Virus record (IMG/VR): IMGVR_UViG_3300041409_000508
Location: 1 to 64,000 of that record
Direction: 5' to 3' (one strand)
Length of the DNA: 64,000 nucleotides
Origin: a virus
Shown here: positions 9,149-64,000 of the stretch, one piece after another
How positions within the stretch are numbered: the stretch's first letter is position 1
Layout: the number at the start of each line of letters is the position of its first letter
Notes under the pieces: generated by a model
Databases searched by the model: none
Told to the model about the DNA's origin: nothing
Seen by the model: the letters and a program-made list of their open reading frames with translations, nothing else
Program-made: the position numbers and the translations under genes

Positions 9149-9248
9149 GACATGACTCCTCTGTGAGTTGGTAGTGCAGGTCACAGAGTAGCCATGTCGA
9201 TGTTGTCTGGGCACCTGTTGACCACGATCGGTTGCCCAGACAACGACG

Positions 9249-9284
9249 AACCCCTACCGGCTGAGCTGTCCGGTAGGGGTTTCG
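9249..9284 (+). terminator. Strong terminator hairpin
   Basis: An 11- to 12-bp perfect stem (arms 9249-9260 and 9270-9281) with a 9-nt loop is followed by T-rich sequence. It separates the 8699 region from the PLP-enzyme gene. The rest of 9149-9316 holds no convincing gene; a 38-codon frame from 9194 runs through the hairpin. Confidence 0.75.
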
Positions 9285-9316
9285 TATCCTTTCGTCCTAC
9301 TCGACGTTAGGAACGC

Positions 9317-24299: not shown

Positions 24300-25100
24300 G
24301 TGAGCGAGTCTACCTCTGACACCGAACAGTGGCTACCTGTTGTCGGATACGAAGGTTACTACGAAGTATCTGATCATGGCCAGGTCCGAAGTTTAGATCG
24401 TTGGATACTGACGAAAACTGACGTACGCCGATTCTTATCAGGATGCATCTTACGGCCTGCAATCGGATCGCACGGATATTTAGCTGTCATCTTAAATATG
24501 ACTGGTAATCGACAATGTAAATGCGTGCATGACTTAGTATTACGTGCTTTTGTTGGACCGCAACCTGCGCCAAATATGGAATGCTTACATGGGCCTAACG
24601 GTAAACTTGATAATCGTCCTGAGCATTTGTCTTGGGGAACGCGTTCTGATAACATGCTTGATACGAGTATTCATGAGACAAATCATAACCGCAATTTGAC
24701 TCACTGTCTTCGAGGCCATCTCCTCCAAGAACCAAATCTAGTGTCATGCACTAATACAAAAGGGTATCGTAACTGTTTATCGTGTAATCGCGCGATGTCA
24801 ACTGAGCGCTATTACAACACAATAGGTAAGGCTTATGATATTCAGAGCGGATCAGATCAGCATTTCTCAGAAATCATGGCAGGTATTTCTCATAAGAAAG
24901 TGTCACATAAAACACACTGCCCTCGTAAGCACCTACTTCAGGCCCCTAATCTCGTATCACATAAGCTGCCGAATCGCTGTTGCTTGTCTTGTAAACGGGC
25001 ACAGACTGAGCATCATTATTACACTAAAACAGGTAGAGCTTATGATGTCCAAACGCATGCTGACGCATTCTACGCCAAAATTATGAGTAACAACAAGTAG
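24300..25100 (+). CDS. NUMOD4/HNH homing endonuclease (266 aa)
   Basis: Residues 10-34 match the NUMOD4 motif (WLPVVGYEGYYEVSDHGQVRS) and residues ~72-118 the HNH core (VHDLVLRAFVG, ECLHGPNGKLDNRPEHLSWGT). The C-terminal half consists of two related Cys-rich units (RGHLLQEPNLVSC and RKHLLQAPNLVSH, each followed by CLSC-x-RA and YYxxxGxAYD), an internal duplication likely forming DNA-binding zinc modules. On the opposite strand to the tail genes and visibly AT-richer, as expected of a recent homing insertion. GTG start. Confidence 0.85.
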   Translation: MSESTSDTEQWLPVVGYEGYYEVSDHGQVRSLDRWILTKTDVRRFLSGCILRPAIGSHGYLAVILNMTGNRQCKCVHDLVLRAFVGPQPAPNMECLHGPNGKLDNRPEHLSWGTRSDNMLDTSIHETNHNRNLTHCLRGHLLQEPNLVSCTNTKGYRNCLSCNRAMSTERYYNTIGKAYDIQSGSDQHFSEIMAGISHKKVSHKTHCPRKHLLQAPNLVSHKLPNRCCLSCKRAQTEHHYYTKTGRAYDVQTHADAFYAKIMSNNK

Positions 25101-45279: not shown

Positions 45280-45560
45280 GCACCACCACTGCTCAGCCGC
45301 TTCTCACGCTTAGCCCTGATCCGGTCCAGATCGTTGCTCTTCGGCCGTCCCAGAGCGACTCGTTCTTTCTCCTGCGCTAGCTTGCGCAGCTCCGCCAGTA
45401 CCCGCTGCAGTGCGCAGCCACTCGGCTGGTGGCCCTGGTCGAACGCCAGGGCGTGCTGGCGGCCGATCTGAATCAGGCCACACTCCCGTTCCACCAACTC
45501 AGCAGGCAGCAGGCGCACCTGAGCGAGGTAAGAGCCCAGCGCGGTCGGTCCCGTTGCCAT
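45276..45560 (-). CDS. Probable small terminase subunit (94 aa)
   Basis: First gene of the minus-strand late operon, directly before terL with one short gene between. Helical, charged C-terminal half (LQRVLAELRKLAQEKERVALGRPKSNDLDRIRAKREKRL). TerS proteins recognise the packaging site. Assigned by position and size; no HTH is obvious, so moderate confidence. Confidence 0.5.
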   Translation of the reverse strand: MATGPTALGSYLAQVRLLPAELVERECGLIQIGRQHALAFDQGHQPSGCALQRVLAELRKLAQEKERVALGRPKSNDLDRIRAKREKRLSSGGA

Positions 45561-45586
45561 CCCAACCTCCGATACTGTCTGCTGTC

Positions 45587-47407
45587 ATGACAAGGCCAGT
45601 CTCTACCAGAGCCGCTGACACTGCCGCGGTGCGCGCCATCGCCCAGGCGTGTGTCAACGTCGAGCTGTTCACCATCCCGCTGTACCTCGCCGCCGCTACC
45701 TCGATCGCCGGCATGCACCAGATCACGGGGAAGAACAGCGACTTCTACACCGGACGCTGGTGGCCGGGTGCGGCGACCACAGCCAACCCGCAGACCACTA
45801 ACGAAACCGCTTACAACATCATGTTTTCAGTGCACGTCGAGGAGATGCTGCATCTCCAGCTCGCCGCTAATCTCGCCAGTGCAGTAGGAGTGACGCCGCT
45901 GTTCACGTCTCCAATACTGCAGGATGAGCAGTACGGCTGGACCTGCTACGACAGCTCTGTCATACCCCACGTCGTAGACTTAAAAGACACTGTCCACAGT
46001 GATGCCATAGTGAAGATAGATGGCCTCACTCGTGAGCAACTAGAGCTATTCTTGATTATCGAAGAGTCCGAAGTGACATCACGAAGTCATATCACCGCAC
46101 CAGAGAAATACTTTCCTACTGTCCCGTTCAATAACTGGACAGAAGAGATGACCGAAGTCGATCTGCCGATGTTCGGCACTATCGGCCATATGTATTCGTG
46201 CTATTACGAATATCTGAGCTCAGTGTACGAAGACGGCTTGACGTTATGGGATCACGTCTTCGTTCCCGACTCCCAGCAGAACGACCTGTTCAATGTCGAG
46301 AACACCGGTCATCCGAAGAAAGAATACACAGGATTTCGTACACTCATCACCACGTCAAACCCATCTAAAGCATACTCACAGGCTCTAGCGATGATGAACG
46401 CCATCACCGATCAAGGCGAAGGTTCTGTGCTCGACCAGCGTTCTGATAACCCATCAGAGGTGGCGACTCAGTACGAAGCAGCTCAAGACGCCATGGAAGT
46501 CGACTATCCCTCTTACAGCGACACCGGAGAGCTAGCTCCTTCAGCTGACACGATGGCTCGTTATACTTACGGAGACTGGGATCACTACGACCGATTCAGT
46601 CAGCTACTGGAGATGGTCGATCAAGTGACTCTCTGGCCAGCTTGGCATAAGCAACACGGACCATGGACAGCTGACGATTTGCAGAGTATGCAAACTGAAC
46701 CCAGCTTCTACGACATCCCGAGTGCTGCTGACGTTGCTGATGCGATGAACCGCATAGCCGCAAGCCCTGATCTCATGCGACCACTGTTCAACCAGGCTGC
46801 TGTTGGTTCTCTGGCCGGCATCACAACCGTGCTCAACCAGTACTGGGCTAAACCTGACGTGATCTTCCCCTACCCGGCGATGGTGGGGTCAGGTGACCGC
46901 ATGACGATGAGCTGGGCACTGTTCAGACTGCCACCAGACCTGTCAGTTGGTGCTGACACTAGCTCTGTCAGCGGGTCTGCGCACGCCTGCCAGAGCCTGA
47001 ACCTGACAGAACCAGGCAACGACTGCGCTGCAATCGGGGTCTACCATTCCTGCCGCGGAGCCAACAACTGCGCCGGTCAAGGTGGCTGTGGCTTCGTGCA
47101 GAAGATCAGCGCCGCGCAGCCCAGCCAGCACGGCTTCGCCTTAGTGAAGGCCAAAGCTGCTACCAGCGGCCTGTTCAGCGCTCCCAGTGCGAACGCCTGC
47201 GCCGGCCAGGGTGGCTGTGCGGTCCCGATCTCAGCATCTCAGTTGCTCGTGCAGAGCGGGACGATGCAACTCTACGACGATGACCAGCCATTTGATGAGC
47301 TTGCATTCAGTAAGGGCGAGCCAGTGCACGAAGTAGCGATGCGCGCTGCTGGTCTAGACGAAGTACCACCCAATGATGTCCGGCTCGTGCTGCCGCCGGC
47401 AACCTGA
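45587..47407 (+). CDS. Ferritin-like (VioB/IPD-synthase-type) protein with Cys-rich C-terminal tail (606 aa)
   Basis: Start at ATG 45587, preceded by TACTGT (45573-45578), a possible near-leaderless -10. Residues ~15-100 carry the ferritin-like diiron pattern: VNVELFTIPLYLAA and VHVEEMLHLQLAANL (ExxH). This family includes the VioB iminophenyl-pyruvate dimer synthase domain. From residue ~460 the protein changes to a Cys-rich tail: C468, C480 (GNDCAAIG), C489, C495 and C501 (HSCRGANNCAGQGGCG), C538 and C544 (NACAGQGGCA). Motifs of this CxGxNxCxGxGGC type resemble substrates of MNIO enzymes. Together with the MNIO gene downstream this suggests a protein that is both enzyme-like and modified on its tail (inference). 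Confidence 0.75.
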   Translation: MTRPVSTRAADTAAVRAIAQACVNVELFTIPLYLAAATSIAGMHQITGKNSDFYTGRWWPGAATTANPQTTNETAYNIMFSVHVEEMLHLQLAANLASAVGVTPLFTSPILQDEQYGWTCYDSSVIPHVVDLKDTVHSDAIVKIDGLTREQLELFLIIEESEVTSRSHITAPEKYFPTVPFNNWTEEMTEVDLPMFGTIGHMYSCYYEYLSSVYEDGLTLWDHVFVPDSQQNDLFNVENTGHPKKEYTGFRTLITTSNPSKAYSQALAMMNAITDQGEGSVLDQRSDNPSEVATQYEAAQDAMEVDYPSYSDTGELAPSADTMARYTYGDWDHYDRFSQLLEMVDQVTLWPAWHKQHGPWTADDLQSMQTEPSFYDIPSAADVADAMNRIAASPDLMRPLFNQAAVGSLAGITTVLNQYWAKPDVIFPYPAMVGSGDRMTMSWALFRLPPDLSVGADTSSVSGSAHACQSLNLTEPGNDCAAIGVYHSCRGANNCAGQGGCGFVQKISAAQPSQHGFALVKAKAATSGLFSAPSANACAGQGGCAVPISASQLLVQSGTMQLYDDDQPFDELAFSKGEPVHEVAMRAAGLDEVPPNDVRLVLPPAT

Positions 47408-47417
47408 GCTTGCATGA

Positions 47418-47438
47418 CAGTACAGCATGTGGTAGTGT
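47418..47438 (+). promoter_or_regulatory. CAGT-box leaderless promoter of the MNIO operon
   Basis: CAGTACAGC (47418-47426), 6 bp, TAGTGT (47433-47438), 7 nt before ATG 47446. TTGCAT lies 17 bp upstream of the -10. Confidence 0.75.
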
Positions 47439-47445
47439 CTGAGCT

Positions 47446-47607
47446 ATGAACGAACGATGCACTTGTGAATACCCAGTCACTCCATTACGAACGAATCTTG
47501 GAGGACATTACAAATCATGCCCATTGTCTAGAGAACCTAACCGTGGATACAATTACTTTGTTCAAGCACAGTCACCACGAGAAGCAAAGCCAAAGAAAGA
47601 TGAGTGA
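47446..47607 (+). CDS. Small Cys-containing peptide upstream of MNIO (53 aa)
   Basis: Leaderless ATG 47446; the TGA (47605-47607) overlaps the MNIO start region (ATG 47600), so MNIO is probably translated by coupling. Contains CTCEYP near the start and KSCPLS, then a Lys/Pro/Glu-rich tail. It could be an accessory peptide, a candidate modification substrate, or simply one of the small zinc proteins that this promoter family drives. Confidence 0.65.
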   Translation: MNERCTCEYPVTPLRTNLGGHYKSCPLSREPNRGYNYFVQAQSPREAKPKKDE

Positions 47608-48403
47608 CTTCGGGGTCGGGTTGCGCTGGCCGCACCATCACTACCTGATGACCACACCCCCAGAGCAGTGGGATGTCGACTGGTTCGAGATCATCTCAGA
47701 GGACTTCTTCGAGGGCCTCGGCTCCCGAGTGCTGGCCAGAATCGGCACCCATAAACCGATCGCACTGCACGGTGTCTCACTGAACATCGGTGGTACCGAC
47801 CCGCTGGACTTCGACTACCTCCACAATCTTAAGATCCTCGCTGCGCAGACCGACCCGCGGTGGATCTCCGATCACTTGTGCTGGACCGGCGTTGCCGGCG
47901 TCGACACCCATGACCTGCTGCCGCTGCCACTCACCGAAGAAACGTTGGTTCATGTCGCCGGTCGGGTGCACTGCGTGCAGGAGTACCTGGACCGGCCACT
48001 CGTACTGGAGAACCCGAGTAGCTACATCCAGTGGTCGGCATCGCAGATGACCGAGACAGAGTTTATGAAATGCCTGATCGGCCGTACCGGCTGTGGCCTG
48101 CTGCTCGACGTCAACAACGCCTACGTCACCGCGCACAACCAGGGCCGCAGCCCGATCGAGTACATCCAGAACTTCCCGATGAGTGCCGTCGCTTATCTGC
48201 ACATCGCCGGCCACACCGACGACTTCAGCGGAATCCTGATCGACACCCACGATCGACCGGTGATCTCCGAAGTGTGGTCGCTGTACCGGCTTGCTCAGAA
48301 CTACGCTGGCGGGCTGCCGACTTTGCTGGAGTGGGACTCGAACATCCCTGGCTTTCCTGAGCTTGTGACCGAACTGAACAAGGCTCGGGCCATCTGTGGC
48401 TGA
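47600..48403 (+). CDS. DUF692 multinuclear non-heme iron oxygenase (MNIO) (267 aa)
   Basis: All metal-ligand positions of the DUF692 TIM barrel appear present: H57 (ALHGVSLNIGG), H92 (ISDHLCW), E137 (LENPSSY), D170 and N172/N173 (LLLDVNN), H201 (YLHIAGH), D215 and H217 (IDTHD), E244 (LLEWDSNIPG). Length fits MbnB/TglH/BufB relatives, which oxidise Cys or other residues of a peptide to thiooxazole, oxazolone-thioamide or related groups. ATG 47600 is chosen because conserved sequence begins there (FGVGLRWP). Overlaps the next gene by 8 nt. Confidence 0.9.
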   Translation: MSDFGVGLRWPHHHYLMTTPPEQWDVDWFEIISEDFFEGLGSRVLARIGTHKPIALHGVSLNIGGTDPLDFDYLHNLKILAAQTDPRWISDHLCWTGVAGVDTHDLLPLPLTEETLVHVAGRVHCVQEYLDRPLVLENPSSYIQWSASQMTETEFMKCLIGRTGCGLLLDVNNAYVTAHNQGRSPIEYIQNFPMSAVAYLHIAGHTDDFSGILIDTHDRPVISEVWSLYRLAQNYAGGLPTLLEWDSNIPGFPELVTELNKARAICG

Positions 48404-59406: not shown

Positions 59407-59604
59407 TTATGTCTTGAGTGGCTTCCAGGGCTGTGCGGTATCGATGCCGGCCAGCGGGTCGCGTCCCTCCTGCCACAGGATGTGGTGATCGTTGCCCAGC
59501 TCAGCCAGGCACATCGGGCAGTTAGACCAACGTTCGCAGCGTTCGAGGTCACGTCCGACGACCCACGCATGCTGCCTGCCGGTCAGCTCGTAGGGCGTGC
59601 TCAT
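59407..59604 (-). CDS. Small Cys-containing protein (65 aa)
   Basis: Reads GRQHAWVVGRDLERCERWSNCPMCLAELGNDHHIL, a Cys/His arrangement of likely zinc-binding type. The 59301-59406 stretch after it contains no gene I can support beyond a ribosome site for the MazG-like gene. Confidence 0.55.
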   Translation of the reverse strand: MSTPYELTGRQHAWVVGRDLERCERWSNCPMCLAELGNDHHILWQEGRDPLAGIDTAQPWKPLKT

Positions 59605-59629: not shown

Positions 59630-59764
59630 TCATGACCAGTCACTCTCACGTCTCATTAGATCGTCGCAGTAGTCGCATAAGCTCCACTCATCACACCTGC
59701 ACTCCCAACGGACGTTGGGCTTGAGCGTGTCAAGCCACCATCGCAACCACTCAGGGAGTCTCAC
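59630..59764 (-). CDS. Small Trp/Cys protein (44 aa)
   Basis: GTG at 59764 overlaps the TGA of the upstream RHH-like gene. Contains ECRCDEWSLCDYCDDL, a four-cysteine zinc-ribbon pattern. Trp-rich N-terminus. Confidence 0.6.
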   Translation of the reverse strand: MRLPEWLRWWLDTLKPNVRWECRCDEWSLCDYCDDLMRRESDWS

Positions 59765-59955
59765 GTCGAGTCCTGCGACCGCGGCACTGGCACACAAGCT
59801 TCGTCAGCAAGTAGACGCTGGCGACTTAGGAAGTCATCAACCATCGCGCTGACAGCGTCGTTGAGCGACAGTCCAGTGCTGAGGGCATACTGCGCTACTT
59901 GATCATATCGCCACGCTGGCGTACGCCAGGTGACGGTGTGCCGAGGTTCTGTCAT
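59761..59955 (-). CDS. Ribbon-helix-helix-like DNA-binding protein (64 aa)
   Basis: Pattern of beta strand (RHTVTWRTPAWRY), helix (DQVAQYALSTGLSLNDAVSAMVDDFLSRQ) fits small RHH repressors. TAGGCT lies 6 nt upstream of the ATG on the minus strand, so it is probably leaderless, and a perfect 16-bp palindrome lies 18 nt upstream. Likely autoregulatory (inference). Confidence 0.6.
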   Translation of the reverse strand: MTEPRHTVTWRTPAWRYDQVAQYALSTGLSLNDAVSAMVDDFLSRQRLLADEACVPVPRSQDST

Positions 59956-59972
59956 CAGGCGAGCCTAGCACG

Positions 59973-59988
59973 CTTGCTTGCAAGCAAG
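59973..59988. promoter_or_regulatory. Perfect 16-bp palindrome, operator candidate
   Basis: CTTGCTTGCAAGCAAG reads identically on both strands. It overlaps the -35 (TTGCAA) of the rightward RNA promoter and lies just upstream of the leftward RHH-like gene, the placement expected for a shared operator. Confidence 0.8.
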
Positions 59989-60006
59989 TTCAGTCTGCGC
60001 TAACCT
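59978..60006 (+). promoter_or_regulatory. Promoter of the structured RNA
   Basis: TTGCAA (59978-59983), 17 bp, TAACCT (60001-60006). The spacer carries CAGT followed by 6 bp before the -10, matching the CAGT-box family. Start expected near 60013. Confidence 0.65.
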
Positions 60007-60012
60007 TGGCTG

Positions 60013-60284
60013 CGTGCCGGTCAGATGCCGGGACCTCGTGAGCATTGGTTTGACAGCTAGGTAAGAGCCCGAGATAGTGCATCGGCTGGTTGGATGCGGA
60101 TAGAGATGAGTGTCTTAGGTTGCTGATGCTCACGAGTGGTTGTCGCTTCAACTATCGAACGCATTTCGGTAGGGCCTGACAGCATGGCGACAGCAAGGTC
60201 ATCGGCTGGTTTTAGCCGATGGGCGGAAGTGCCTGGTATGTGAGCTTACTTGATGCCAGCTCAACTCCAGGCACTTCCGTTTTT
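60013..60284 (+). ncRNA. Candidate structured non-coding RNA or leader (~270 nt)
   Basis: No reading frame of note, but several perfect helices: an 11-bp long-range helix (60035-60045 with 60126-60136), hairpin CTATCGA/TCGGTAG (60152-60172), an 8-bp hairpin (60200-60207 with 60214-60221), and a 13-bp terminator stem at the 3' end. Starts at a promoter and ends in a T-run. It either acts in trans as an RNA or is the leader of the 60299 gene with an attenuator. No known RNA family could be named. Confidence 0.7.
60224..60284 (+). terminator. Strong terminator at the end of the structured RNA
   Basis: Stem 60224-60236 with 60267-60279 (13 bp), an inner helix TGAGC/GCTCA (60241-60245 with 60259-60263), and a five-T run (60280-60284). 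Located 15 nt before the next ATG, with its ribosome site right after, so read-through would express the 60299 gene. Confidence 0.85.
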
Positions 60285-60298
60285 CTAGAGGAGTTAAC

Positions 60299-60502
60299 AT
60301 GAAAGGTCGCTGGTATCAACGTAAATGGTGGGTGAGCGATCATTTTATGCTAACTGATTCTCAGTCAACGTGGTTTGGTGAAATTAGATGTCAGTCTGCT
60401 TGTGGTGTTACAATGTCTCTTAATCAAGATTGGAAACCAGAACAAGATATCAGCACAGGTAAGAGATGTTCACGTTGTGAGCAAAAATTAAGTTTGAGCT
60501 AA
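60299..60502 (+). CDS. Small Cys-containing protein downstream of the RNA (67 aa)
   Basis: GAGGAG 5 nt before the ATG. Basic and aromatic start (GRWYQRKWWVSDHF), cysteines at RCQSACG and RCSRCEQ form a zinc ribbon. AT-rich. Overlaps the 3' end of the MetE-like gene by 15 nt. Expression probably depends on the attenuator-like terminator before it. Confidence 0.7.
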   Translation: MKGRWYQRKWWVSDHFMLTDSQSTWFGEIRCQSACGVTMSLNQDWKPEQDISTGKRCSRCEQKLSLS

Positions 60503-61504: not shown

Positions 61505-62095
61505 CTAGCGGGTCAGCCCGAGCTTGCTCTCTGCGGTGGTCCAGTTCGTTGCTATCGCGTTCTGCGCGTCTGCGATGGCGATATGGTGAGCGCAGACAGC
61601 TGAACGCAGATCATTCTCTACTTGGTCTTTCGAGTTATGGAAACCCTGGCCTGGCTCGTCACTGATCTCTGGCCACAAATTTTCTACTGAGTTAGCTCCA
61701 CCAAGCTCAAGTGGGATGAGATGGTCGAGTTCGACAGTAGGTCTAAAACTAGTCGGCTCGCCATAAGCTTTCATCGCTGCTGTCTTGGTACGGTCGGTTT
61801 CACTGGTTGGCGGTCGTACGGTAGCCGTCCAGCCAGGATGGCAGACTGTGGCCGCCAGTGTCGCATTGGTGGGGTTGAGCATGTCTCCACGGATCGCACC
61901 AGGAGTGCAGGAGGCCACTGGCAAGCGCACGTCATCGCCGGCTGACCGGCGACAGACAGCCCGGTAAGTGCCGGTCACATGGCTACTGGGTGCGACGATC
62001 TGAATACCGGTGAGATGCGGTTGCGTGATCGACAGTGAGACAGGAGCGCCACACGAACTGGCAATTAACAATGCTGCTAAAGTAAATTTGATCAT
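61505..62095 (-). CDS. Secreted HNH-type nuclease-like protein (196 aa)
   Basis: Hydrophobic N-terminus ending LIASSCG looks like a signal peptide, possibly a lipobox (the pattern ASSC is imperfect). The C-terminal part reads PTVELDHLIPLELGGANSVENLWPEISDEPGQGFHNSKDQVENDLRSAVC, the catalytic layout of an HNH nuclease. Exported nucleases can clear extracellular DNA or attack competitors. Overlaps the next gene by 4 nt. Confidence 0.7.
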   Translation of the reverse strand: MIKFTLAALLIASSCGAPVSLSITQPHLTGIQIVAPSSHVTGTYRAVCRRSAGDDVRLPVASCTPGAIRGDMLNPTNATLAATVCHPGWTATVRPPTSETDRTKTAAMKAYGEPTSFRPTVELDHLIPLELGGANSVENLWPEISDEPGQGFHNSKDQVENDLRSAVCAHHIAIADAQNAIATNWTTAESKLGLTR

Positions 62096-62271
62096 GCTAT
62101 TGCTTCAATGAAAGTTACGTATACTTTGCTCGCAGGAACATCGTGCGTGCTTGCGTGATGTTCTCTGGCTTTGATTTTAGCTAAATTCTGCGGTCCTTTG
62201 ATGTGTTGAAACATAACAGCTCTTGTATGCCAATCAAATGTCTCGAATACGTAAACAGTGTCAGTCGACAT
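62092..62271 (-). CDS. Small hypothetical protein (59 aa)
   Basis: Two adjacent ATGs; 62271 chosen. Reads TDTVYVFETFDWHTRAVMFQHIKGPQNLAKIKAREHHASTHDVPASKVYV, an alpha/beta pattern. Its 5' end overlaps the 3' end of the polymerase gene. Confidence 0.6.
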   Translation of the reverse strand: MSTDTVYVFETFDWHTRAVMFQHIKGPQNLAKIKAREHHASTHDVPASKVYVTFIEAIA

Positions 62272-64000
62272 CAACTAGCTCCTCGATCTCAGCAAAGTCG
62301 AATCCAGTGTTTTCTTGAGGCATCCATGTTCTGCCTTCGATAGTGGCTTCACACTCGAATGGCATGTCGCGGTAGACAGTGGTCATTGCTTTCTCGAACA
62401 CTTCTTTCAGCTCGTCGGCACGGTCTATCGGTGCACAGCCTACTAGTTCATCGTGTACGAGCATCCGCAATGCCCAGGAATATCCCCAGTCGATGACCTG
62501 CTCGACAGCATTGTTCACCATGTCAGCGAGTGAGCCTTGAGTGTCATAGTTCAACGCGTTGCGGCTCGGCTTGTCGTGCTTGAGCAGGACTTGTCCGTCT
62601 TCTGTGACAAAATAACGATCCCACAGTGGGCAGATGCGTCCCGAGTCGAGGACGACATGCGGTTGCCAGTTGAGCTTACGTTCATATTCAGCGAGGACAT
62701 GATACTCGGCATCCCAGCGAGCACGGGTTTCTTTGGCGAATTTCATGTCGCCGCCCAGCTTGGCGGCTAGTTTCTCATTGCCACCACCGTAACAACGAAG
62801 CAGGAAACCCATCTTGGAACCATCGCGCATCATGAAGCTGTCGGTTCCCGCTGTCTTGCCTTCTTTCACTCCCTTGTAAGCATCGCCGTAGGCAAGCACA
62901 GCGAGTGCACTGTAGAAATCACCGGCAAGCAGGTCGTGACGTAACTTGCGGTCTCCTGAGCGAGCGGCCATCATTCGTGGCTCACCTTGGGCGACGTCGC
63001 AGGTGATGTAAACCTCACCGTCAGCAGCGCGGAATGCTGGCCGTATCCGCTTGTCACTGCGCTTCGGGAGCTGCTGCAGCGCGGGACGTTGTGCACTCTG
63101 GCGTCCGGTGATGGTGCCGATAGCGCGCATTCCGCAGTGTACCTTGCCGTCACGCGCCAGTCCGTCGAGCATGGGTTTGACGTAGGCGGCGCGGAACTTG
63201 GTGGCGCCACGGACGGCTTTGATCGTCTGGGCTAGCTCGACCGCGGCAGGAGGTGTTGCCGGATCTTTGACCAGTCCCGCTAAGACATCCTTGTCCCAGC
63301 ACTCTTTGTCGCCGCTCTTGGTCTGCTTCGGGCTGTGCACACCTAGTGCGGTGAAAGTCTTGCCGATCGAGGCACCACTGGCGGTACGGTTGATACCCCG
63401 GCGTTCCAGCTCGTCGGCGTGGGTAGAGATCACTTCTGCGTAGAGGTCGTCCAGCCAGCGCGCGTACGGACCGTCCACCAGCTTGCCGCGTAGGGTCATC
63501 AGGTCGATATGCCACTGCAGCTTCAGAGCTTGTCGCACTGCTGGCCACTGTCCACGAGCTTTGATCTCTTTGACCATGAGGTGCCACAGCCGCACCGTCA
63601 TCAGCGGGTCCAGGCCTGCGTAACGCAGGTAGGTCTCGTCATCGTCGGGGATGTTGGCCCAGCCCCAGCCTTCCTTGTCCGGCCGTTGCTTGACAGCTCG
63701 TAGGGCGAGCAGCGCGTCGACTACTTCTGCTGATTCGCCGGTCAGACCAGGTCGCACCTCTTCCAGAGCAGCAGTCGTCCAGCTGTCATTGCCTTTCGGT
63801 GTCTTGCGAGGACTGACGATGCCGAGATGTGCTAGCGCACGCTTCGCGCTGGTAGGCGTGTGGGAAAGACCGAAGTATCCGATGACCGGTGTGTAGTGTT
63901 CGACTCTGGCGACCGCAGCAGGGTCTGGTGGTGCGTCTTTCAGCAGCTCAGCCATGCGAGCGTGCATCGCGGTCTCAGCTTCGATGAGGATCTTGCCCTC
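62261..64000 (-). CDS. Family A DNA polymerase, 5' end beyond the window
   Basis: The frame is open to the right edge. Motif A (DVAQGEPRMMA; DYSQIELR counterpart), motif B (KMGFLLRCYGGGNEKLA) and motif C (MLVHDELV) are all visible, with FTALGVHSPKQTK in the thumb and TITGRQSAQRPALQQLPKR before motif A. Upstream, YLRYAGLDPLMTVRLW is the third 3'-5' exonuclease motif, so the proofreading domain may be present beyond the edge. Replicates the phage genome together with the primase-helicase. Confidence 0.9.
   Translation of the reverse strand, partial: EGKILIEAETAMHARMAELLKDAPPDPAAVARVEHYTPVIGYFGLSHTPTSAKRALAHLGIVSPRKTPKGNDSWTTAALEEVRPGLTGESAEVVDALLALRAVKQRPDKEGWGWANIPDDDETYLRYAGLDPLMTVRLWHLMVKEIKARGQWPAVRQALKLQWHIDLMTLRGKLVDGPYARWLDDLYAEVISTHADELERRGINRTASGASIGKTFTALGVHSPKQTKSGDKECWDKDVLAGLVKDPATPPAAVELAQTIKAVRGATKFRAAYVKPMLDGLARDGKVHCGMRAIGTITGRQSAQRPALQQLPKRSDKRIRPAFRAADGEVYITCDVAQGEPRMMAARSGDRKLRHDLLAGDFYSALAVLAYGDAYKGVKEGKTAGTDSFMMRDGSKMGFLLRCYGGGNEKLAAKLGGDMKFAKETRARWDAEYHVLAEYERKLNWQPHVVLDSGRICPLWDRYFVTEDGQVLLKHDKPSRNALNYDTQGSLADMVNNAVEQVIDWGYSWALRMLVHDELVGCAPIDRADELKEVFEKAMTTVYRDMPFECEATIEGRTWMPQENTGFDFAEIEELVDVD

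Follow-up and report, generated by a model that had tools for sequence, protein, structure and literature searches.

Intergenic non-coding RNA is already documented in actinophages: in the Rhodococcus phage WC1, intergenic non-coding regions are highly transcribed (PMC10986025). The locus described here resembles WC1 nc_1 to nc_3 (PMC10986025) in offering an intergenic non-coding transcript in a probable actinobacteriophage. However, the WC1 RNAs were shown by RNA-seq, whereas the present RNA is predicted from sequence alone, with a defined fold and a terminator, and the relation between the WC1 regions and this RNA in sequence was covered only by our blastn search of all phage records. The RNA may be an unclassified phage intergenic non-coding RNA of a kind already measured in WC1. 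Lambda OOP, P22 sar and VP882 VpdS (reviewed in PMC12197685) are likewise short phage RNAs with a proposed regulatory role. These are mostly antisense or Hfq-dependent, whereas the present RNA has no established opposite gene and no target was found for it within the sequence analysed. Two further comparisons concern the order of elements. As in the rimP leader (PMC2965389), a structured RNA is followed by an intrinsic terminator and, directly after that, by a ribosome site, but, unlike attenuators and leaders of that type, our locus has no competing antiterminator, family match or shown conservation. As in ToxIN, CptIN and TenpIN (PMC5086642), promoter, RNA, Rho-independent terminator and protein gene succeed one another, here as elements that would be co-transcribed, but the locus lacks both a tandem repeat array and an endoribonuclease homologue.

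The sequence we analysed (the window) covers positions 1-64000 of a virus record that is 71,198 bases long. Its DNA polymerase is 27-32% identical to the best named phages among the matches listed, which come mostly from phages of Arthrobacter, Curtobacterium, Microbacterium and Mycobacterium, and its terminase is about 33-36% identical to proteins of Rhodococcus and Mycobacterium phages and of one unclassified record. Because both proteins match phages of actinobacterial hosts only distantly, we infer that the record probably belongs to an actinobacteriophage of which the collections contain no close relative. Near the locus almost all genes have minus-strand orientation. Both the candidate RNA and the small gene that follows it, which encodes a protein with four cysteines (Cys4), lie on the plus strand, divergent from a gene for a ribbon-helix-helix (RHH)-like protein and convergent with a gene of 335 aa, whose 3' end the plus-strand pair overlaps at 60488-60502. 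Elsewhere in the window, positions 45410-48403 (plus strand) encode a ferritin-like protein (PF12902, 1.8e-21) with CAGQGGC-type cysteine motifs at its C-terminus and, directly behind it, a RiPP-modifying enzyme of the MbnB/TglH/ChrH family (PF05114, 8.3e-95); the two are possibly a phage-borne peptide-modification pair. The elements of the locus are as follows.

59761-59955, minus strand: RHH-like protein of 64 aa, a candidate autorepressor (open reading frame, AlphaFold, Foldseek).
59973-59988, no strand: perfect 16-bp palindrome CTTGCTTGCAAGCAAG, a candidate operator, exact in the sequence and overlapping both divergent promoters.
59978-60006, plus strand: candidate promoter TTGCAA-17-TAACCT with a TANNNT-type -10 element and a predicted start at about 60013.
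60013-60284, plus strand: candidate structured non-coding RNA of about 270 nt (fold energy, helix probabilities, ensemble diversity).
60035-60045 with 60126-60136, plus strand: P1, a long-range helix of 11 perfect bp (15 bp with wobble) between CTCGTGAGCAT and ATGCTCACGAG, pair probability 0.98.
60050-60078, plus strand: internal promoter-like site TTGACA-17-GATAGT, with an alternative start at about 60085.
60080-60091 and 60200-60211, plus strand: 12-nt direct repeat CATCGGCTGGTT, seen in the sequence.
60139-60194, plus strand: P2, a 9-bp helix with an apical hairpin at 60152-60172, probability 0.96-0.97 for an RNA that begins at 60013.
60200-60221, plus strand: P3, a hairpin that holds the second repeat copy, probability 0.92-0.98 for all 5' ends tested.
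60222-60284, plus strand: intrinsic terminator with a perfect 13-bp stem (15 bp with wobble), an inner hairpin and T5, z -6.6.
60299-60502, plus strand: Cys4 zinc-ribbon-like protein of 67 aa, with C31-x3-C35 and C57-x2-C60 (open reading frame).

We recovered every element proposed in the initial annotation at the positions given there, among them the palindrome, the 11-bp long-range helix, the 13-bp terminator stem with its T-run, the small zinc-ribbon gene behind it and the divergent RHH-like gene, whose product is plausibly of that fold. The gap between T-run and ribosome site, given there as 4 nt, comes to 2-5 nt according to which base is counted as the first of the site, in agreement with that value.

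Since 1.13 palindromes of at least 16 bp are expected per 64 kb under a Markov null, the length of the candidate operator is ordinary; what is notable is its location, with start sites diverging on either side. It spans the -35 element and part of the spacer of the plus-strand promoter, and it also lies upstream of the TAGGCT (59967-59962) that precedes the RHH-like ATG by 6 nt. Leaderless messages with a TANNNT -10 element are common in mycobacteria, and the RHH-like message is probably leaderless as well, with TAGGCT fitting that pattern. A scan of the window that tolerated as many as 3 mismatches found no further copy of the operator. A second palindrome, the 14-bp CTGGCGTACGCCAG at 59916-59929, lies within the RHH-like gene; several of this kind are expected per window.

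The single-sequence AlphaFold model of the RHH-like protein (pLDDT 81) places helices at residues 17-27 and 31-53, in the order expected of an RHH protein. Its Foldseek matches are weak, all with E > 0.5, and include AmrZ (rank 1), MatP, Arc, NikA and CopG. Pfam, PHROG and NCBIfam returned no RHH match, and neither peptide patterns of the protein nor tblastn against phages led to a homologue of the RNA. From the model and these weak matches, RHH identity of the product is plausible. Beyond this gene on the minus strand are two small cysteine-containing open reading frames (59407-59604 and 59630-59797) to which profile searches assigned no family.

With regard to where the transcript begins, the promoter at the operator is weak, matching the consensus at 7/12 positions, a level that hundreds of sites across the window attain. 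A stronger match, overlooked in the initial annotation, lies inside the RNA: the sigma-70-type site at 60050-60078 scores 10/12 and is one of 8 sites with at least 10 on both strands of the 64 kb. This internal promoter could yield a shorter RNA from about 60085. As the main start it is disfavoured, the shorter RNA having an ordinary ensemble (95/150 shuffles were as low in diversity). When the 5' end was scanned, ensemble diversity was lowest at 60013, with 60034 a close second. P2 was stable with 5' ends at 60010-60016 and 60025-60038 but not with ends at 59960-60007 or 60020, and an RNA beginning at 60044 lost both P1 and P2. Because diversity is lowest from 60013 and ordinary from the internal start, the predicted fold argues for a long RNA beginning near 60013, an argument that is thermodynamic and not a proof of the start.

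The fold of this long RNA was compared with that of shuffled sequences. The whole RNA (60013-60284) has a fold energy z of -4.9 to -5.4, and most of this signal comes from the terminator. Without the terminator, the body (60013-60220) retains a z of -2.7, with 3/300 shuffles as stable, and its ensemble diversity is 0.097/nt against 0.243 (sd 0.085) in shuffles, 2/150 being as low; none of 150 shuffles matched the body on both diversity and energy. Pair probabilities of the main helices are 0.86-0.98. The P1 region (60034-60137) has a z of -3.4, and an inverted repeat as long as 11 bp occurred in 3/1000 shuffles of the 208-nt body; since repeats of this length are also present in 20/614 overlapping tiles of the real window, the P1 helix is unusual only moderately in length. 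A direct repeat of 12 nt was found in 1/1000 shuffles of the body, and the two copies in the real RNA sit in different helices, 120 nt apart; antisense matches to CATCGGCTGGTT in the window did not exceed chance. Coding scores across the RNA region were weak for both strands, although the minus-strand open reading frame 60057-60185 equals the score of the RHH gene, which keeps this result from being decisive. On both strands, the strongest signal in fold energy across the window is at 9151-9300, a stretch lying shortly upstream of a class-V aminotransferase gene (PF00266); it contains one hairpin with arms around GTTGTCTGGGC and GCCCAGACAAC and a second formed by CCCCTACCGG and CCGGTAGGGG.

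These same values bear on whether the region is an ordinary spacer, in which the terminator alone is functional and stops residual or weak plus-strand transcripts, which may arise at the internal promoter, the remaining fold being due to chance. Such a reading gains from 11-bp inverted repeats being not rare in the window tiles, from a body z of just -2.7, from the ordinary ensemble of an RNA started at 60085 and from the fact that conservation could not be shown. It does not readily accommodate the absence, among 150 shuffles, of any combining such low diversity with such low energy, nor the coincidence of the best-defined 5' end with the predicted start, and about 280 nt of non-coding sequence is much for a compact phage region. 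We consider an ordinary spacer unlikely; the predicted RNA is probably a genuine regulatory unit, its structure and function being predictions.

The terminator that ends the RNA pairs 60224-60236 with 60267-60279 and is followed by TTTTT at 60280-60284 and then CT. From the T-run to the start codon of the Cys4 gene there are 14 nt, within which lies the ribosome site AGAGGAG (60287-60293) that precedes the ATG at 60299. Because 14 nt leave too little space for another promoter, the Cys4 gene probably has none of its own and relies on read-through of the terminator. This arrangement raises the question of whether the RNA serves the Cys4 gene mainly as a cis-acting 5' leader, with the terminator as a regulated attenuator that is released by a ligand, by a protein (the Cys4 product being one candidate) or by a ribosome on a leader peptide. 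Part of what is expected of an attenuator was found, in that a terminator separates the structured RNA from the start of the gene, directly before its ribosome site. The mutually exclusive terminator and antiterminator of a classical attenuator were not: 25 kcal/mol is lost when the 3' arm of the terminator is barred from pairing, and the best pairing that upstream sequence can form with the 5' arm does not surpass that in shuffles (219/300 as good). Given this 25 kcal/mol loss and the lack of a competing fold, a riboswitch-like element or classical attenuator is not supported.

Attenuators without visible antiterminators have been described, for example rimP, and attributed to proteins (PMC2965389). 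With read-through as the probable source of Cys4 expression, the attenuator idea could persist in a weaker form, as a trans-acting factor that modulates it. A leader peptide has a candidate in a GTG frame of 16 codons that begins at 60014, at the predicted start site, but this frame carries no coding signal, and a chance start codon there is estimated in several percent of cases; nor did Rfam return a riboswitch or leader match. Taken together, we regard a cis-acting leader as rather doubtful. The initial annotation had left a choice between a new phage regulatory RNA and a riboswitch-like leader. The first half of that proposal fits the energy, ensemble-diversity and 5'-end results and the lack of an Rfam match; the second is unsupported, because no competing antiterminator was found.

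The gene behind the terminator stands apart from its surroundings in composition, with 39% GC and 29% GC3 against about 58% and 65% in most neighbours, and because of this deviation it was probably acquired. It is one of three low-GC islands that depart from the genome's GC content of roughly 56%, the others being 24300-25100 (44%), which corresponds to a NUMOD4/HNH homing-endonuclease-like gene, and 62092-62274 (41%). The model of the Cys4 protein has three strands and modest confidence (pLDDT 70). Searches of Pfam, PHROG, NCBIfam and PDB sequences gave no family match, and peptide patterns as well as tblastn against phages and plasmids led to no homologue of the RNA.

A small, apparently acquired gene behind a repeat-bearing RNA and a terminator also invites comparison with type III toxin-antitoxin systems, in which case the RNA with its repeated CATCGGCTGGTT would bind and neutralise the Cys4 protein while the terminator keeps that protein scarce. 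The order of promoter, RNA, Rho-independent terminator and protein gene is that of the known systems (PMC5086642), and a 12-nt element is present in two copies. These copies do not, however, form a tandem array, being far apart and in different structural contexts, and no endoribonuclease of the ToxN, CptN or TenpN type was detected with Pfam, NCBIfam, PADLOC or PDB sequences, nor did the Cys4 protein match any family of toxins or defence proteins; the Cys4 model is too weak for its likeness to an endoribonuclease to be judged. We consider a type III-like system very unlikely.

In order to find homologues of the RNA, we searched at the level of both nucleic acid and protein. Rfam 15, a check proposed in the initial annotation, gave no match over the window at the gathering threshold, and relaxing E up to 10 gave chance matches alone, a result that fits a new RNA. 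No homologue turned up when the region and the RNA were each compared by blastn with 50,697 phage records, in pattern scans of 2.9 million viral contigs, which reach close relatives only, or in one pattern scan of genomes; the matches returned by pattern scans were chance. Peptide patterns of the RHH, Cys4, 335-aa and polymerase proteins offered no route to an RNA homologue. An alignment of the polymerase supplied 80 viral loci and 50 whole polymerase-related records, on none of which the RNA was found by blastn or a single-sequence covariance model; in the closest record, that behind L017, the polymerase is 43% identical and the region itself has no match. Because pattern scans detect only close relatives and the collections may lack records near this genome, the absence of homologues is evidence for rarity and not for uniqueness.

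Weighing these results, we put about even confidence in the locus encoding a phage non-coding RNA under operator control, with a terminator that meters how much transcription reads through into a small acquired gene. Sequence or computation gives us the palindrome, the terminator and the predicted fold, and shows that the Cys4 gene lacks room for a promoter and is foreign in composition; promoter activity, RHH binding, a role in trans and read-through are what we infer from them. In this compact divergent unit, the RHH-like protein would bind the palindrome and repress two promoters, its own and the opposing one. The opposing promoter would give rise to a stably folded RNA of roughly 270 nt, from about 60013 to about 60284, ended by the intrinsic terminator. 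This RNA would be the chief product of the locus and would probably act in trans, and the Cys4 gene, without a promoter of its own, would be expressed at a low level solely through read-through of the terminator.

An operator-controlled RNA is supported by the z and low diversity of the body, by the fold being best from 60013, by the strength of the terminator, by the lack of both an antiterminator and promoter space, and by an RHH model compatible with a repressor beside the palindrome. It is weakened by the absence of a homologue and hence of covariation, by an operator promoter of 7/12 with a stronger promoter inside the RNA, by an energy signal that comes mostly from the terminator, by a palindrome length expected by chance, and by an RHH assignment made from a single-sequence model and weak fold matches. 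That the RNA is a new phage RNA is plausible. That it founds a new RNA class, in which an RHH-controlled RNA of ~270 nt and the Cys4 protein act as a pair on the host or on competing phages, strikes us as quite improbable.

As an orphan without evidence of conservation, the locus now carries limited weight. If the RNA is real, it would be a well-folded and so far unclassified addition to the few known from actinophages. Its repressor and operator would make its timing testable, and the order of terminator before gene would offer a simple test of read-through.
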